Origin: Haloterrigena turkmenica DSM 5511
GTDB lineage: Archaea > Halobacteriota > Halobacteria > Halobacteriales > Natrialbaceae
Length of the DNA: 64,000 bases
Reading direction: 5' to 3'
NCBI RefSeq assembly: GCF_000025325.1
Contig: NC_013743.1
Span: 1,798,001 to 1,862,000 of the forward strand
The notes beneath the pieces were generated by a model, which was given only the letters and a program-made list of their open reading frames with translations, ran no database searches and was not told the DNA's origin. Positions 412 through 13,846 of the stretch are shown here, piece after piece (the stretch's first letter is position 1; each line of letters starts with the position of its first letter). The position numbers were made by a program, and so were the translations under genes.

Positions 412-2244
<1,833 letters not shown>

Positions 2245-5062: not shown

Positions 5063-6613
5063 TTACAGCGGGATATTGCCGTGTTTCTTGTCCGGGTTCT
5101 GTTCGCGTTTGGTCTCGAGCATCTCGAGATCGTCGATCAGCCGCGGCCGCGTCTCGGTGGGAACGATGACGTCGTCCAAGAACCCTTTATCCGTTGCAGT
5201 GTACGGGTTGGCGAACTCCTCGCGGTACTCCTCGATGAGTTCGTCCCGGAGCTCGTCGGGGTTGTCGGACTCCTTGAGCTCTTCCCGATAGAGGATGTTG
5301 ACCGCGCCCTGGGGCCCCATGACCGCGATCTCGGCGGTCGGCCAGGCGTAGTTGACGTCGGCGCCGAGGTTCTTGGATGCCATGACGCAGTAGGCGCCGC
5401 CGTAGGCCTTCCGTGTGATCACGGTGAGCAGGGGGACGGTCGCTTCCGCGTACGCGTAGAGAAGCTTCGCGCCGTGACGGATGATCCCGCGGTGTTCCTG
5501 ATCGGTGCCGGGCATGTAGCCCGGGACGTCGACGAAGGTGACGATGGGGATGTTAAAGGAGTCACAGAAGCGGATGAACCGCGACCCCTTCATCGAGGAG
5601 TCGACGGTGAGCGTGCCGGCGTTGACGCGGGGCTGGTTGGCGACGAGGCCGACCGAGCGCCCGTCGAGGCGGCCGAAACCGACGACGATTTCCTTGGCGA
5701 AGTTGCCCGCCACTTCGAAGAACGAGCCCTCGTCGACGACGCTGTCGATGACGTCGACCATGTCGTAGGGCTTCTGGGGGCTCGGCGGGACGATCGACTT
5801 GAGTTCCTCGTCGCGCCGATCGGGGTCGTCCCACGGCTCGACGCGGGGCGGGTCTTCCATGTTGTTCTGCGGGAGGTAGGAGAGCAGGCGCTTGATGTCG
5901 TCCAAGGCCTGTTCCTCGCTCTCGCAGGCGAACTGGGCGACGCCGGTCTTACCGGCGTGGGTCATCGCGCCGCCGAGCTCCTCGTGGGTGACCTCCTCGC
6001 CGGTGACGGTCTTGGTGACGCCGGGCCCGGTGATGTACATGTGGCTCGTGTCCTTCACCATGAAGATGAAGTCGGTGATCGACGGCGAGTACACCGCGCC
6101 GCCGGCGCAGGGCCCCATGATGGAGGAGATCTGGGGGACGACGCCGCTGGCTTCCTGATTGCGCCGGAAGATCTCCGTGAATCCGGCCAGACTCTTGACC
6201 CCCTCCTGAATTCGGGCGCCGGCGGAGTCGTTGAGCCCGACGACGGGCGCGCCGACCTCCATCGCCATGTCCATGACCTTGCAGATCTTCTCGGCGAAGA
6301 CCTCGCCGAGCGAGCCGCCGAAGACGGTGAAGTCGTGGGCGAAGACGAAGGTGGTCCGCCCGTTGACCTCGCCGTAACCCGTGACGACGCCGTCGCCGGG
6401 GATCTTCTTCTCCTCCATCCCAAACTGGCTCGTCTGGTGGGTTCGAAGCTGATCGAACTCCGTGAAGGTGCCCTCGTCGAGGAAGTAGTCGATCCGCTCC
6501 CGAGCGGTCATCTTCCCCTTGTCGTGTTGCTTCTCGATACGGGCCTCGCCGCCGCCCAGTTCGGCCTCCGCGCGGAGGTCCTGGAGTTCGTCGATGCGGT
6601 CTTCCATCGTCAT
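5063..6613 (-). CDS. pccB: Acyl-CoA carboxylase carboxyltransferase subunit
   Basis: 516 residues from the ATG at 6613. Both carboxyltransferase halves are present: the N-terminal half with DGVVTGYGEVNGRTTFVFAHD and SAGARIQEGV, and the C-terminal half with GFGRLDGRSVGLVANQP and TVITRKAYGGAYCVMASK, including the paired oxyanion-hole glycine regions. The subunit moves the carboxyl group from biotin to propionyl- or acetyl-CoA. A purine-rich Shine-Dalgarno (GGGAGGG) 10 nt upstream selects this start over a longer in-frame start at 6799. It forms an operon with pccX. Confidence 0.93.
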   Translation of the reverse strand: MTMEDRIDELQDLRAEAELGGGEARIEKQHDKGKMTARERIDYFLDEGTFTEFDQLRTHQTSQFGMEEKKIPGDGVVTGYGEVNGRTTFVFAHDFTVFGGSLGEVFAEKICKVMDMAMEVGAPVVGLNDSAGARIQEGVKSLAGFTEIFRRNQEASGVVPQISSIMGPCAGGAVYSPSITDFIFMVKDTSHMYITGPGVTKTVTGEEVTHEELGGAMTHAGKTGVAQFACESEEQALDDIKRLLSYLPQNNMEDPPRVEPWDDPDRRDEELKSIVPPSPQKPYDMVDVIDSVVDEGSFFEVAGNFAKEIVVGFGRLDGRSVGLVANQPRVNAGTLTVDSSMKGSRFIRFCDSFNIPIVTFVDVPGYMPGTDQEHRGIIRHGAKLLYAYAEATVPLLTVITRKAYGGAYCVMASKNLGADVNYAWPTAEIAVMGPQGAVNILYREELKESDNPDELRDELIEEYREEFANPYTATDKGFLDDVIVPTETRPRLIDDLEMLETKREQNPDKKHGNIPL

Positions 6614-6623
6614 TGTTGATGAA

Positions 6624-6804: not shown

Positions 6805-6810
6805 TATATA
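6805..6810 (+). promoter_or_regulatory. TATA box of the substrate-binding protein gene
   Basis: TATATA is centred about 25 nt before the ATG at 6833, a leaderless arrangement. It rules against a TTG start at 6818, which would lie upstream of the expected transcript start. Confidence 0.65.
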
Positions 6811-6832: not shown

Positions 6833-8110
6833 ATGGTACGGCAAGTCAAACGGAGGTGGGTACTTAGTGGGATCGGTAGTGCAGGTGCGATCGGTCTCGC
6901 CGGATGTATCGGCGACGAAGGGGCCGTCGAAGGAGGCGGCCCGGCCGTCCTGAACATCATCGGCTACCCGGAGAGCGGCATTCAGATCTTCCGGGACTTC
7001 TACGCCGACTTCGACACCGGGACGGAGATCATCGTTCCCGACGGCCTGCAGGACGGCGATCTCCCCGACGAAGTCGGGAACGACATGACGAACGTCACCG
7101 GCACCGCGCCGGCGTCCCAGGGCCCGCACGAAGACGCCTTCGCAGAGCTCTACGAGGACGAGTACGGCGAATCACCGGGCGTGTTCACCTCGCACACGTT
7201 CGACGCCGTCGCGGTGTGTACCCTCGCGAACGTCGCGGCCGGCGAGAACGACGGCCAGACGATCCGAGATCAGATGCGCCGGGTCGCGAACCCCGGCGGC
7301 GACGAGTACGGACCCGGCGAACTCCAGGAGGCCGCCGAAGCCGCCGCGGCCGGCGACGAGATCACCTATCAGGGCGCTTCGAGCGCGGTCGACTTCGACG
7401 ACGTCGGCGACCCCGCGGAGGCCGCCTACGACGTCTGGGGGTTCAGCGACGGTGACATCGAAACGGTCGATACGATCACTTTCGAGGGGGACGGCCCCGG
7501 CGGCGAGATGGCCGACGAGTCGCCCGGCGGGACCGGTCGCGACGTGATGGTCGCGATGTTGCTCCCCGAGACGGGGGACCTCGGCGAACTCGGCACCCCG
7601 ATGATCGACGCCGGCCGCCTGGCCATTCAACGGATGGAGGGAGTCGACCTCACGTTCGATCTGCAGGTCGAGGACACGGAGACCGACGAGGACACGACCC
7701 TCAGCAACGGCGGGGCGCTCATCGACGCAGGGTATCCCGCGATCGTCGGCGCCGCGTCGTCCGGCAACTCCGTCCCGCTGGTCGGCGAGACCAGCAGCGC
7801 GGGCGTCGTCCAGTGTTCGCCGGCCAGTACGGCGCTGTCCCTGTCGAACGTCGAGGATGACGGCTACTTCTTCCGGACCGCGCCGAGCGACCTGCTGCAA
7901 GGGCAGGTGATGGCGGAGGTCTCCGCGAATCGCCTTGAGGCGGACCAGGTGGCCACGCTGTACGTCAACAACGACTACGGGCAGCAACTCTCGGAGCAGT
8001 ACGTCGAGTCCTTCGAGAACGATCAGGACGGCGAGGCGCTCAACGAGGTCTCGTTCGAGCCCGGACAGGGCACGTACACCGGCGAACTCGAGTCCGCACT
8101 GGCCGAGTAG
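6833..8110 (+). CDS. ABC transporter substrate-binding lipoprotein (LivJ-like), circularly permuted domain order
   Basis: 425 residues. A KRRWVL twin-arginine-type signal ends in a lipobox (GLAGC, C25), so the protein should be membrane-anchored outside the cell. Residues about 39-219 (VLNIIGYPESGIQIFRD to TITFEG) match what is normally the C-terminal half of type I periplasmic binding proteins of the Leu/Ile/Val class. After a Gly/Pro/Ser linker (about 220-235), residues 236-425 (VMVAMLLPETGDLGELGTPM to ELESALAE) match the normal N-terminal half. All expected parts are present once, but in swapped order; the cut falls in the loop before the IGYPESG strand. It converges on livF of an ABC operon that lacks its own binding protein. 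The ligand is inferred to be branched-chain amino acids or a related small molecule. Confidence 0.85.
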   Translation: MVRQVKRRWVLSGIGSAGAIGLAGCIGDEGAVEGGGPAVLNIIGYPESGIQIFRDFYADFDTGTEIIVPDGLQDGDLPDEVGNDMTNVTGTAPASQGPHEDAFAELYEDEYGESPGVFTSHTFDAVAVCTLANVAAGENDGQTIRDQMRRVANPGGDEYGPGELQEAAEAAAAGDEITYQGASSAVDFDDVGDPAEAAYDVWGFSDGDIETVDTITFEGDGPGGEMADESPGGTGRDVMVAMLLPETGDLGELGTPMIDAGRLAIQRMEGVDLTFDLQVEDTETDEDTTLSNGGALIDAGYPAIVGAASSGNSVPLVGETSSAGVVQCSPASTALSLSNVEDDGYFFRTAPSDLLQGQVMAEVSANRLEADQVATLYVNNDYGQQLSEQYVESFENDQDGEALNEVSFEPGQGTYTGELESALAE

Positions 8111-8215: not shown

Positions 8216-8920
8216 CTACCCGCCGAGGAACTGCTGGCGGACCTCGTCGTCGTTCAGCAGAACCTCGCCGGCGTCCTCGTATCGGTTCGATCCCTGAACG
8301 AGGACGTAGCCCCGGTCGCAGCGGCGCAGCGCCTCCTTCGCGTTCTGTTCGACGACCAGGACGGCGGTGCCGCTGGCGTTGATCGCGTTGACATGGTCGA
8401 ACATCTCGTCGACGAGGTCGGGGGCCAAGCCCGCGCTGGGTTCGTCGAGCAACAACAGGTCGGGATCGAGCATCAGCGCGCGCCCCATCGCGACCATCTG
8501 CTGTTGGCCGCCGCTCATCGAGCCCGCCTTCTGATCCTGTCGCTCGCGTAGTACGGGAAACTGATCGAATACGCTCTCGAGTGCCGCCTCCGGTACCTCG
8601 TCGAGGATGTACGCGCCCATCTCGAGGTTCTCGCGGACCGTCAGTGACGGGAAGACGTTGTCGTTCTGGGGAACGTAGCCGATTCCCTCGTGGATGATTT
8701 CGTCGGGCGAGCGGCCGGTGATGTCCCCCCCTTTGAACTCGACCGTCCCCCCCATGTACGTCGTCAGTCCGAAGACGGACTTCATGGCCGTCGACTTCCC
8801 GGCGCCGTTGGGGCCGACGATGACCACGTACTCGTCTTCGGCCACCTCGAGATCGACGCCGTGCAGGATCTGCAAGTCCCCGTAGCCGGCGTCGAGGTCA
8901 GTGACGTCGAGCATCGCCAT
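8216..8920 (-). CDS. livF: Branched-chain amino acid ABC transporter ATP-binding protein
   Basis: 234 residues, full family length. Walker A GPNGAGKST at about 38-46, LivF-type Q-loop region YVPQNDNVFPSLTVRENL, signature SMSGGQQQ and Walker B LLLLDEPSAGLAP are all present. It powers import through the LivH/LivM membrane pair. The ATG overlaps the end of livG, and it is the last gene of livH-M-G-F. Confidence 0.92.
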   Translation of the reverse strand: MAMLDVTDLDAGYGDLQILHGVDLEVAEDEYVVIVGPNGAGKSTAMKSVFGLTTYMGGTVEFKGGDITGRSPDEIIHEGIGYVPQNDNVFPSLTVRENLEMGAYILDEVPEAALESVFDQFPVLRERQDQKAGSMSGGQQQMVAMGRALMLDPDLLLLDEPSAGLAPDLVDEMFDHVNAINASGTAVLVVEQNAKEALRRCDRGYVLVQGSNRYEDAGEVLLNDDEVRQQFLGG

Positions 8921-9753
8921 CAGACCTCACCTCCGAGATAGGCCTCGATGACCCGCTCATTCGAGGTGATCGCTCCGGGGGCCCCCTCGGCCAGGACCGA
9001 TCCCTGATGCATGACGATGACGCGCTCGCAGTTCTCCATGATGAGGTCCATGTCGTGTTCGACGATCAGGAACGTGTACCCCTCCTCGCGGAGGTCGTGG
9101 ACGTGCTCGAGCAGCTTCTTCTCGAGCGTGGGGTTGACGCCCGCGAACGGCTCGTCGAGCAGGAGCATCTCCGGGTCGGTCATCAACGCGCGCGCCAGCT
9201 CGAGGAGCTTCCGCTGGCCGCCCGAGAGGGTCCCCGCTTTCTCCTCCGCGAGGTGCTGAATCTCGAAGAACTCGAGGGAGTCCCATACGCGCTCTAAGAG
9301 TTCGCGCTCCTCTCGGACGACTTCTCGGCGGGTGACCGGCAACACCGATCGCCAGAGCGCTTCGCCCCGCTGGCGCTTCGCCGGCAGCATCAGGTTCTCG
9401 AGGACCGTCATGTTCGCCATCTCGCGGGCGATCTGGAACGTCCGAACGAGCCCGTATTCGGCGCACTGGTAGGGCCTGATGCCCGTGATGTCCTCTCCCT
9501 GGAACGTCACCGTTCCGGCGTCGGGTTCGTGGATCCCCGTGATGCAGTTGAACGTCGTCGACTTCCCGGCGCCGTTGGGACCGATCAGTCCGGTCATCGA
9601 TCCCGACTCGACTTCGAACGTCGCGCCGTCGACGGCCGTGATCCCGCCGAAGCGCTTGACCAGGCCGTCGACGGCCAACTCGACGTCGTCCGTCGGTCGA
9701 TCCGGGCTCTCGCTCGTCAGGGAGCCGGTCGGTTCGGCGGTCGTATCGCTCAC
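8920..9753 (-). CDS. livG: Branched-chain amino acid ABC transporter ATP-binding protein
   Basis: 277 residues with a 27-residue hydrophilic N-terminal extension. Walker A GPNGAGKST, the FQIAREMANMTVLENLML segment with the longer LivG-type insertion, signature LSGGQRKLLELA and Walker B LLLDEPFAGVNP are present. It pairs with LivF as the second nucleotide-binding subunit. It overlaps livM upstream by 4 nt and livF downstream by 1 nt, so the operon is tightly coupled. Confidence 0.92.
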   Translation of the reverse strand: MSDTTAEPTGSLTSESPDRPTDDVELAVDGLVKRFGGITAVDGATFEVESGSMTGLIGPNGAGKSTTFNCITGIHEPDAGTVTFQGEDITGIRPYQCAEYGLVRTFQIAREMANMTVLENLMLPAKRQRGEALWRSVLPVTRREVVREERELLERVWDSLEFFEIQHLAEEKAGTLSGGQRKLLELARALMTDPEMLLLDEPFAGVNPTLEKKLLEHVHDLREEGYTFLIVEHDMDLIMENCERVIVMHQGSVLAEGAPGAITSNERVIEAYLGGEV

Positions 9754-11099
9754 TGGGAATCACCGCCGTGATCGGAATCTGTCCCTCCGGGACGGGGTCC
9801 GGCACCGGTCTCGGCGGCGGGTCGATCCGTCAGGGGGATCGCCGCCGCCGTCTCCTCCCGATGGCCGAGCAGCCCGTCGGGCCGTCGATGCATGAGGAGG
9901 ACGAGCGCGACGCCCATCAGCACGAACTGCAGCGTCAGGAACTCGTCGAAGGTGTAGCGCAGGAACGGCGCCGGGTTCGCCGAGAGCAGCGGCGCCACGG
10001 CGCCGGCGAACGTGTTCGGCGCGTCGCCGACCGTGATGACCTCCTCGATCAGGCGGCGCACGTAGCGTGGTCCCTCGAACAGCACCGCGACGAAGAGCCC
10101 GGAGCCGAGGACGCTGCCGGTGTTCGAACCGGCGCCACCGATTATCAGCGCGATCCAGATGTAGAACGTGACGTGCGGTCGGAACGCCGTCGGCGTCACG
10201 CCGGTACGGCGGACCCGCCAGAGGATGCCGGCCAAGCCCATCAGGGCACAGCCGAGCACGAACACCTTGATCTTGAATCGGTTCGTGTTCTTCCCGAGCG
10301 ATTGGGCGGCCTCTTCGTCCTCGCGGATCGCTTTGAGGACGCGTCCGAACGGCGACCGACTGGTCCGCTGGATGAGCCAATAGAACCCGATCAGGACGAG
10401 CACGAGCACGATCGAATAGACCAGCGCCCGCGCCTGCGTCGGCCCAAATCCGAACAGGGCGTTCGTGAGGTCGACGAACGAGGAGAACGCCTCGAGCTCG
10501 AAGATGACGTTCATCGGATCGCCGTAGTTTCGAGTGAGACCGCGACCGCCGCCGGTCCCCAGTTCGGCCCCGAGAACGCTGAACTGCTGGGCCATACCCG
10601 AGGTGAGCCCCAGCCGGACGATCTCCGCGAAGGCGATCGTCGTGATCGCGAAGTAGTCGGCCCGGAGGCGCAACGCGGGGATCGCGACGACGAGGCCCGC
10701 CAGGCCGGCGGCGACGACGCCGCCGGCGATCGCGATCGGCATCGGGAGCCCGAGCCCCGGGTACTGTGCGGCGCCGGTCGGATCGACCGGTTTCGCCAGC
10801 ATCATCGTCACGTACAGACCGATCGCCATGAACCCCGCGACGCCGATGTTGAACAGACCGGTGTACCCCCAGTGGAGGTTCAGCGCCAGCGTGACCATCC
10901 CGTAGACGGCGATCAGATAGGTCATCCGCCGCAAGGTGTTGACGATCCCGTCGAGGGAGTAGCCGAGCGCGAGTCCGATCGCCGCGTAGACGAGATAGAT
11001 CGCCGCGAAGGCCACGAAGATCTTCACGGCGTCCCGCTCCCAGAGCGCTTCCAATTGGGTCCGTTCGTCCGTCGCGTTCGCGGTCGTATTCGCGCTCAT
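9750..11099 (-). CDS. livM: Branched-chain amino acid ABC transporter permease
   Basis: 449 residues, with many hydrophobic helices. It has the LivM features NLHWGYTGLFNIGVAGFMAIG and the cytoplasmic loop FGRVLKAIREDEEAAQSLGKNT, which docks the ATPases. An extra helix pair at the N-terminus (about 27-65) and a polar C-terminal tail are present. It overlaps livH and livG by 4 nt at each end. Confidence 0.9.
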   Translation of the reverse strand: MSANTTANATDERTQLEALWERDAVKIFVAFAAIYLVYAAIGLALGYSLDGIVNTLRRMTYLIAVYGMVTLALNLHWGYTGLFNIGVAGFMAIGLYVTMMLAKPVDPTGAAQYPGLGLPMPIAIAGGVVAAGLAGLVVAIPALRLRADYFAITTIAFAEIVRLGLTSGMAQQFSVLGAELGTGGGRGLTRNYGDPMNVIFELEAFSSFVDLTNALFGFGPTQARALVYSIVLVLVLIGFYWLIQRTSRSPFGRVLKAIREDEEAAQSLGKNTNRFKIKVFVLGCALMGLAGILWRVRRTGVTPTAFRPHVTFYIWIALIIGGAGSNTGSVLGSGLFVAVLFEGPRYVRRLIEEVITVGDAPNTFAGAVAPLLSANPAPFLRYTFDEFLTLQFVLMGVALVLLMHRRPDGLLGHREETAAAIPLTDRPAAETGAGPRPGGTDSDHGGDSQ

Positions 11100-12208
11100 G
11101 CCGTCGTCTTCCCTCCGAAGAGTCCGGACGGTCTGATCAGCAGGACGAGGATCATCAGCAGGAACGCGGTGATCGTCGTGAAGTCACCGCCGGGGAGCCA
11201 GATCATCGACATGTGCATGCCGACGCCGATGACTAGACCGCCGAAGATGGCCCCGTAGATCGAGCCGATCCCGCCGAGGATCACGGCCGCGAAGATCAGC
11301 AACAGCAGCAACCACCCGAACTGCCAGTCGATGGTCCCCGTCCACAACACCATGAGATAGCCCGCGGTGCCGGCGAGTCCGCCGCCGATCATCCAGGTCC
11401 ACCGGATCACCCGTTCGGTCGGGATGCCGGTGACGAGGGCCAGGTCGCGGTTGTCCGACATCGCTCGCATCGCTTTCCCGAGTTTCGTCCGCTGGAGCAG
11501 GAAGTGAACGCCGAGCATCAACGTGACCGCGGCGACGATCAACGTCGCGTCGTGGGCGCCGATCGACACGTAGCCGTCGACCAGTAGGAAATCGACGGAC
11601 GGTACGCTCGCGGTCGTGCCACGCGTGCTGCTCGAGTAGACGAACACGAGGACGTACCGGAGCGCGAACGCCACGCCGACACTCGTGATCAGCAGCGGAA
11701 TACCGCCCGATCCGCGGACCGGTTTGAAAGCGAATCGGTCGATCAGCAGCACGAAAAGCGCCGTCGCGACGCCGGCTACGAGTAGGCCGGCGAGGACGGC
11801 GATCGGCGTCGCGGTGATCGCGACGTCGAGTTGCGCTCCGGAGACCTCGCGCTGAGGTGCGACGAGGACGAGCGGACCGACGCTCGCAACGCCCCAACCA
11901 GCGACGAGGTACGTGACTCCCCACCCGAAAAACGCCCCCGTCGTCACGTAGTCCCCGTGAGCGAAGTTCGCGAAGTTGAGGATGCTGTAGGTCATCGAGA
12001 GCCCGATCCCGGCTAGCCCGATGATCAGCCCGTAGAGAATACCTTCCGTCACGTATCGGGCGACACGTGAGATGCTGTACGTCCCGCTCGCGAGGCCGAG
12101 AATCAGGTCCCCCAGCAACGCCACGGCACCGATCCCCACGACCAGTAGCAGGAGCTGCTCGGACGAGAGACTTCGACCCCGATCGACCGCCTCATCTACT
12201 GTAGACAT
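11096..12208 (-). CDS. livH: Branched-chain amino acid ABC transporter permease
   Basis: 370 residues, first gene of livH-M-G-F. LivH motifs include YGLIIGLAGIGLSMTYSILNFANFAHGDY near 58-86 and the docking loop LGKAMRAMSDNRDLALVTGI. Several membrane helices cover the rest. A Shine-Dalgarno (GGAGG) lies 7 nt before the ATG at 12208, and a TATA-like run is found near 12248-12255. The operon has no adjacent same-strand binding protein; the convergent lipoprotein at 6833-8110 is the likely partner. Confidence 0.9.
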   Translation of the reverse strand: MSTVDEAVDRGRSLSSEQLLLLVVGIGAVALLGDLILGLASGTYSISRVARYVTEGILYGLIIGLAGIGLSMTYSILNFANFAHGDYVTTGAFFGWGVTYLVAGWGVASVGPLVLVAPQREVSGAQLDVAITATPIAVLAGLLVAGVATALFVLLIDRFAFKPVRGSGGIPLLITSVGVAFALRYVLVFVYSSSTRGTTASVPSVDFLLVDGYVSIGAHDATLIVAAVTLMLGVHFLLQRTKLGKAMRAMSDNRDLALVTGIPTERVIRWTWMIGGGLAGTAGYLMVLWTGTIDWQFGWLLLLLIFAAVILGGIGSIYGAIFGGLVIGVGMHMSMIWLPGGDFTTITAFLLMILVLLIRPSGLFGGKTTA

Positions 12209-12505: not shown

Positions 12506-13846
12506 ATGGCACAACGTGAATCATGGGCAACGCGAGCAGGGTTCATCCTCGCTGCGGTCGGGAGCGCAGTGGGGCTCGGAAACATCTGGCGATTCCCGTA
12601 TCAAGTCGGAGAATACGGCGGCGCAGCGTTTCTCGTCGTCTATCTCCTGTTGGTCGCACTGATTGGATTCCCGGTAATGCTGGTCGAATTTACGATCGGG
12701 CGACGCACAGAACGCAATCCCGTCGGGGCGCTCAAACAGATCGGTGAAGGTGCGTGGACGAAAGTCGGATGGGTGTTCGTTCTCGCCGGATTCGTCATTC
12801 TGTCGTACTACAGCGTCGTCGCCGGCTGGATTCTCCGGTACACGGCTATCGGACTGCAGGGCAATTACGCGGCCGGCGGTGCCGGCGCACAGTTCATGTC
12901 GGTCGCCGGTGGGATGGATTCTGTCGTGACCCACGCCATCTTCATGGCTGCCATCGTCACCGTCGTCGCGTTCGGCATCCAGCAGGGTATCGAGTTCTCC
13001 GTGAAGCTCATGGTCCCCGCGATCATCGCGCTACTGATCGGCCTGGCGGTGTACGCCGGAACGCTCTCCGGTGCCGGAGAAGCGTACGCGTACTACCTCT
13101 CTCCCGATCTGGGAACGATCGCGGCGAACTGGACCGAGATCCTCCCCGCGGCGGCCGCACAGGCGTTCTTCACGCTGTCGCTCGGGATGGGCGTGATGAT
13201 CACCTACGCGTCGTATCTCGGCGAAGACCGGAATCTCGCCAAGGACGGTACCATCATCGTCGCGCTCGACACGGCGATCGCGTTTACCGCCGGTCTGGTC
13301 GCGTTTCCGGTGCTCTACACCGCCGAGTTGACGGACGTCGCCGCCGGACCGAGTTTCATCTTCGTCAGCCTCGCCCAAGCCTTCAGTAACATTCCGTTCG
13401 GCGGGATCATCGGCGCCATCTTCTTCGCCATCGTCACGATCGCCGCGCTCTCGAGTGCGATCAGCATCATGGAAGTCGTGGTCTCGTACCTGATCGACGA
13501 ACACGGGGTCGACCGCCTCCCGGCGACGATCGCGCTCGGCGTCGTGATCTTCGTCGTCGGTCTCCCGGTCGCCTACGAGCCGGAGGGGCTGAACTGGCTC
13601 GTCGTGTACGACGGGTTCGCCAATTCGATTCTGCTCATCCTCGGCGGCCTGCTGCTCGCCATCTACATCGGATGGGTCGCGACCGACCTCGGAATCGAGG
13701 AACTCGGCAAAGGTATTCACAATCTCGGATCGTGGGGAATGGTCTGGATCTGGACGCTCCGAGTGCCGGTCATCATCGTGCTGCTCATCGTCCTCACGCA
13801 GAACACGATCGGCTACTACGAGAGCCTCGTCGGTATCTTCGGCTGA
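12506..13846 (+). CDS. Sodium-dependent transporter, neurotransmitter:sodium symporter (SNF/NSS) family
   Basis: 446 residues, typical of prokaryotic NSS carriers of the LeuT fold with 11-12 helices. The hallmark unwound first helix is visible as AAVGSAVGLGNIWRFPY at about 16-32, which holds sodium- and substrate-binding backbone positions. It should couple import of an amino acid or similar solute to sodium entry, a plausible arrangement in a halophile. It is divergent from the liv operon, so the two could share regulation. The substrate cannot be told from sequence. Confidence 0.9.
   Translation: MAQRESWATRAGFILAAVGSAVGLGNIWRFPYQVGEYGGAAFLVVYLLLVALIGFPVMLVEFTIGRRTERNPVGALKQIGEGAWTKVGWVFVLAGFVILSYYSVVAGWILRYTAIGLQGNYAAGGAGAQFMSVAGGMDSVVTHAIFMAAIVTVVAFGIQQGIEFSVKLMVPAIIALLIGLAVYAGTLSGAGEAYAYYLSPDLGTIAANWTEILPAAAAQAFFTLSLGMGVMITYASYLGEDRNLAKDGTIIVALDTAIAFTAGLVAFPVLYTAELTDVAAGPSFIFVSLAQAFSNIPFGGIIGAIFFAIVTIAALSSAISIMEVVVSYLIDEHGVDRLPATIALGVVIFVVGLPVAYEPEGLNWLVVYDGFANSILLILGGLLLAIYIGWVATDLGIEELGKGIHNLGSWGMVWIWTLRVPVIIVLLIVLTQNTIGYYESLVGIFG

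Follow-up and report, generated by a model that had tools for sequence, protein, structure and literature searches.

The 64,000-nucleotide stretch of the Haloterrigena turkmenica DSM 5511 chromosome analysed here in its entirety, which we refer to as the window, carries a gene for a LivJ-class substrate-binding lipoprotein whose parts and neighbours are collected in Table 1. The gene lies tail-to-tail with a livF-livG-livM-livH cluster, as it does at most of the related loci that we examined, and the four transporter genes match LivF, LivG, LivM and LivH models with scores below the curated cut-offs. In the window's family, genes for an acyl-CoA carboxylase carboxyltransferase and a biotin carboxylase are often found on the other flank of the binding-protein gene. 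A sodium-dependent, SNF family-like transporter gene (12506-13846) adjoins livH in the window, and SNF-like genes also occur near several related loci, where their position and orientation vary.

Table 1. Features at the binding-protein locus of the window (positions count from its first nucleotide).
Feature	Position	Strand	Basis or remark
Biotin carboxylase/carrier subunit	412..2244	-	Second syntenic marker
Acyl-CoA carboxylase carboxyltransferase	5063..6619	-	Transcribed divergently; marks synteny within the window's family
TATA box TATATA, about 25 nt 5' of the ATG	6805..6810	+	Sequence; conservation in orthologues
Permuted LivJ-class (type I) substrate-binding lipoprotein, 425 aa	6833..8110	+	ATG at 6833; order signal-B-linker-A; profile matches
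Twin-arginine-type signal peptide (RRWVL), residues 1-24	6833..6904	+	R7 and R8 invariant in 21 permuted homologues
Lipobox cysteine, residue 25 (LAGC)	6905..6907	+	Sequence
Block B, residues 39-219 (VLNIIGYPESG to TITFEG), equivalent to the second half of canonical LivJ	6947..7489	+	Block HMM b3; 3td9 205-342
Linker DGPGGEMADESPGGTG between old C- and N-termini, residues 220-235	7490..7537	+	Conserved in clade Ia
Block A, residues 236-425 (RDVMVAMLLPETG to ELESALAE), equivalent to the first half of canonical LivJ	7538..8107	+	Block HMMs b1 and b2; 3td9 13-202
livF	8216-8920	-	Associated transporter; convergent with the binding-protein gene
livG	8920-9753	-	Associated transporter
livM	9750-11099	-	Associated transporter
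livH	11096-12208	-	Associated transporter

Behind the signal peptide, the two halves of the binding protein stand in swapped order, which we call type I. The protein belongs to the family described by Pfam Peripla_BP_6 (PF13458; E=1e-19, above the curated cut-off), and positions 2-186 of this model match residues 238-422. Late positions of ANF_receptor (233-351 of 353) match residues 85-205, and the halves are therefore reversed. When the halves are re-joined as A+B, a single Peripla_BP_6 match extends over positions 2-311 of 343, compared with 2-186 only in the native order. We also aligned a profile built from 21 permuted homologues to the solved structure 3td9: profile positions 237-430 fall on chain residues 13-202 and positions 40-160 on chain residues 205-328, placing the cut at the equivalent of a point between chain residues 202 and 205. 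The linker at residues 220-235 is Gly/Pro-rich, the ends of the block HMMs are separated by 19-30 residues in 73 type I proteins, and the linker-spanning sequence FEGDGPGGEMADESPGGTGR is exclusive to the permuted protein. AlphaFold2 models made from shallow alignments reached a pLDDT of 35 for the permuted protein (7 sequences) and 30 for a canonical control (3 sequences).

The canonical N- to C-terminal order of strands is thus not found in the protein encoded at 6833-8110: its old ends are joined, its new ends lie elsewhere, and homologues that share its order show no end-to-end alignment to canonical proteins. A sequence-only reading of this DNA had proposed that the halves are swapped and that this reflects a permutation rather than a deletion. 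The reverse-order profile matches and the near end-to-end match after re-joining bear out the first proposal, and the presence of every part, each once, bears out the second. Together, these sequence comparisons confirm the 425-residue protein as a naturally occurring, circularly permuted LivJ-type binding protein.

The elements around the 5' end of the gene are shared with its relatives. The TATATA box is kept in the four closest orthologues, with TATA-like sequences in other relatives, and its spacing to the start codon is compatible with a leaderless haloarchaeal transcript. The lipobox cysteine is present in most homologues and missing in L014, L037 and L038; these three are type I proteins with a twin-arginine signal, and they may be secreted or otherwise tethered.

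Related genomes do share the permuted order, a possibility that the sequence-only reading had raised. We found it at full length in 18 of 61 genomes in a search of relatives (49-97% identity apart from the window itself), and in about 165 of the 391 sampled Halobacteria genomes, the latter count comprising genomes with a best match at E below about 1e-100. Agreement on this scale is far more than chance would produce. The same search listed 209 genomes, of which the other ~42 hold canonical, type II (see below) or disrupted copies. The permuted order is present in many independent assemblies, including named assemblies of Haloterrigena, Natrialba, Halopiger and Halorussus. A phylum-wide search beyond Halobacteria returned half matches only, and those inspected were canonical. 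In a plasmid collection, no collinear full-length permuted match was found among the matches listed, and the best matches consisted of two joined pieces, the pattern expected of canonical order. The H. turkmenica genome has no normal-order copy at the same locus; the sole close normal-order copy, at G000:C1:3435008-3436135, sits on a long branch of the tree and represents a distant paralogue. Among individual type I copies, that of L163 (G104:C2:2081075-2083870) is disrupted, with about 1.4 kb separating its two parts, and that of L164 (G365:C13:22806-23494) is broken inside block B. Two type I copies lie about 11.5 kb apart in L155 (G332:C1:1444000-1460000), the second of which enters a masked stretch.

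A second permutant, type II, occurs in three genomes (G390, G398 and G325; proteins L064, L065 and L066). Its signal is followed by the rest of A, then B and the linker, and the strand and helix that open A come last, at the C-terminus. Of 170 ORF rows sorted with block profiles, 94 are type I, 70 are canonical and 6 are type II, the last representing three genes, and a type II query against all 125 genomes of the window's family found it in G390 and G398 only. The type II linker has an ADExPGG-like motif in common with clade Ia of type I, defined below. The ends of the type II proteins repeat about three residues (SEI/GEI in L064, GLE/DIS in L066), both copies aligning to one place in type I, and this repeat may be a faint trace of duplication.

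The three orders alternate at one syntenic place, which is occupied by type I in the window, L184, L195 and L200, by canonical proteins in L176, L178, L193, L196, L197, L199, L201 and L204, and by type II in L170 and L171. They mix even within genera: in genus g9, G153 is type I and G171 and G337 are canonical, and in genus g19, G390 and G398 are type II and G023 is canonical. In L195 (G153:C2:169000-185000), the binding protein and all four LivFGMH proteins are 92-98% identical to those of the window, and at this site the genus mates of G153 have a canonical cassette that has diverged; in G153, the whole cassette of binding-protein and LivFGMH genes was likely exchanged horizontally as a unit. 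At four loci from outside Halobacteria (L168, L169, L206 and L207), the related protein has canonical order and its gene again lies tail-to-tail with livF, suggesting that the canonical arrangement is ancestral.

We counted changes of order on two trees. The first is a maximum-likelihood tree of 97 substrate-binding proteins (SBP tree), whose blocks were de-permuted beforehand. Type I proteins fall into clades Ia, Ib and Ic plus the lone protein L140; Ia comprises the window's protein, with its ADESPGG-type linker, and includes type II, and Ib and Ic are presumably Halorubrum-like and Haloarcula-like, the genus names being our guess. Clade Ib is nested with canonical L024, L071 and L022, and canonical lineages lie basal to it. 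The second tree, built from LivH, LivM, LivG and LivF of 56 loci (1342 columns) and therefore independent of the binding protein, reproduces the SBP groups. Type II is placed at two positions in both trees. Parsimony from a canonical root requires at least five changes of order on the transporter tree and at least six on the SBP tree. Because type I is divided among no fewer than three distinct clades on both trees, we conclude that the protein was permuted repeatedly, most likely starting from the normal order. Nor is the window's gene a one-off permutant, given that its order is widespread and of more than one origin and that a second permutant exists.

The alternative that deserves most attention is a single ancient permutation in Halobacteria, scattered afterwards by reversions and by gene conversion or exchange between paralogues, which we consider unlikely. 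It would readily explain why the cut site is identical across the type I clades, but the linkers of Ia, Ib and Ic are unlike one another. When the tree is built from half B alone, the majority of type I rows share one side with three canonical rows, which leaves room for a degree of reversion or gene conversion; yet one permuted clade is rejected on the SBP tree (all permuted proteins together, AU p=0.0087) and a single permuted group is rejected on the transporter tree (AU p=5.6e-50). Cassettes do move, as in G153, but the starred branches of the transporter tree force five changes, and canonical L024/L071 (L176/L177 in the transporter tree) group with Ib in both trees. Moreover, even under reversion each switch between orders amounts to a circular permutation in its own right.

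That the gene joins halves taken from two distinct binding proteins, instead of permuting a single one, is considerably less probable still: the deep placements in the half-A and half-B trees differ somewhat, but Ia, Ib and Ic come out with the same membership from either half, and both halves are close to the same canonical relatives. We likewise give very little weight to a pseudogene or non-functional rearranged relic. Type I copies are disrupted in G104 and G365, but ORFs are intact across the class, and the permuted gene, with dN/dS of 0.12-0.29 against six orthologues and low values in both halves, is evidently under purifying selection. The presumed pocket residues are conserved as well: we take S310, T333, Y382 and D70 to be the counterparts of S79, T102, Y150 and E226 in the LivJ pocket, and in an alignment of 102 rows of type I, type II and canonical proteins the first three are identical throughout and D70 is kept in all rows but one canonical protein, which has E. 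An ordinary amino-acid-type binding protein for the adjoining transporter is therefore to be expected. With all parts there and selection acting on them, we rejected a deletion or pseudogene. Mis-assembly or a sequencing chimera of a normal gene is least credible of all and was rejected, since, even though normal order prevails in the wider family, the permuted order is shared by about 165 independent genomes and named assemblies, and the source is a finished genome produced with Sanger and 454 sequencing (PMC3035258).

We therefore favor repeated circular permutation of one protein. Judged from sequence data, the window's gene very probably encodes a functional, membrane-tethered LivJ-class permutant serving the adjacent LivHMGF transporter, one product of recurrent permutation at the same site, with duplication and loss as the likely route. 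Along this route, a tandem duplication would have been followed by in-frame fusion and by loss of the outer pieces. The canonical ends would be joined through the flexible linker, and new ends would have opened in a loop of lobe II, between helix ELESALAE and strand VLNIIGYPESG. The protein would keep the usual two-lobed flytrap fold, predicted to hold an amino-acid-like ligand in its cleft, and its lipid anchor would now attach to the lobe II strand and not to lobe I. The same site would have been permuted repeatedly in Halobacteria, in at least three type I lineages, and in type II the linker-closed chain would have been re-opened at another place.

Tandem duplication followed by loss is a plausible origin. 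Tandem pairs of intact type I genes occur in L161 (G156:C2:186385-189128) and L162 (G341:C1:890990-893626), and the pairs form two separate branches, indicating that the duplication is older than the split of the two genomes. None of the 170 classified ORF rows is a double-length intermediate, and a partly deleted duplication intermediate was not found. More speculatively, the gene may behave in evolution as a ring of sequence, which at least three lineages opened at the same loop and two re-opened elsewhere in its linker-closed form; re-cutting might then be favored because it shifts the membrane anchor to another lobe or in some other way adjusts docking on the transporter, a suggestion that we hold only tentatively.

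Most known cases of natural circular permutation are isolated, ancient events that separate distant proteins, and their origin is hard to study. DNA methyltransferases are an example of proteins permuted more than once. In the haloarchaeal gene, the canonical, type I and type II forms occur at the same syntenic place, sometimes in one genus, and sequence identity between the orders is roughly 45-60%. With three comparable orders, it becomes possible to test directly how permutation arises and what it costs or gains, and the question is raised of why the same loop is opened repeatedly. There is also a practical consequence, in that order-dependent family models cover only part of the protein in about two fifths of the sampled Halobacteria genomes.

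The sequence-only reading knew of no described natural permutant in this family. One is in fact known among type I binding lipoproteins, in the MglB branch and with another cut: Tp0684/TpMglB-2 of Treponema pallidum, a cluster B protein designated 'Type Ic / Cluster Bc' (PMC4990184). For the LivJ branch the statement stands, as our search of mainly open-access literature found no LivJ-branch, haloarchaeal or recurrent permutation of a binding protein. Tp0684 carries its first three N-lobe strands at the C-terminus and has a fourth lobe crossover added; it binds glucose and closes normally, and a link of its permutation to membrane tethering has been proposed (PMC4990184). Both it and the protein described here are natural circular permutants of type I binding lipoproteins, but Tp0684 belongs to the sugar-binding MglB branch and the haloarchaeal protein to the LivJ branch. 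The cuts differ, too: in the haloarchaeal proteins, the type I cut falls in the second lobe and the type II cut follows the first helix. Neither of these moves the first three N-lobe strands to the C-terminus, the moved segment being the whole first half A in type I and the first strand and helix only in type II. In addition, the permuted part of Tp0684 is only 13% identical to MglB (PMC4990184), whereas the haloarchaeal permutants are highly similar to relatives that have the normal order at this locus, and they arose in several separate events.

Engineered permuted halves of the Thermotoga maritima ribose-binding protein show that cuts and re-joined ends are tolerated in type I binding proteins (PMC9815098); those permutants are man-made, whereas the haloarchaeal ones are natural. 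Compared with LivJ/LivK (2LIV, 1Z15, 2LBP and 3TD9; Peripla_BP_6), the permuted protein belongs half by half to the same family, has a corresponding presumed pocket and is likewise paired with LivHMGF, and it differs in the order of its halves, the position of its membrane anchor and its added linker.
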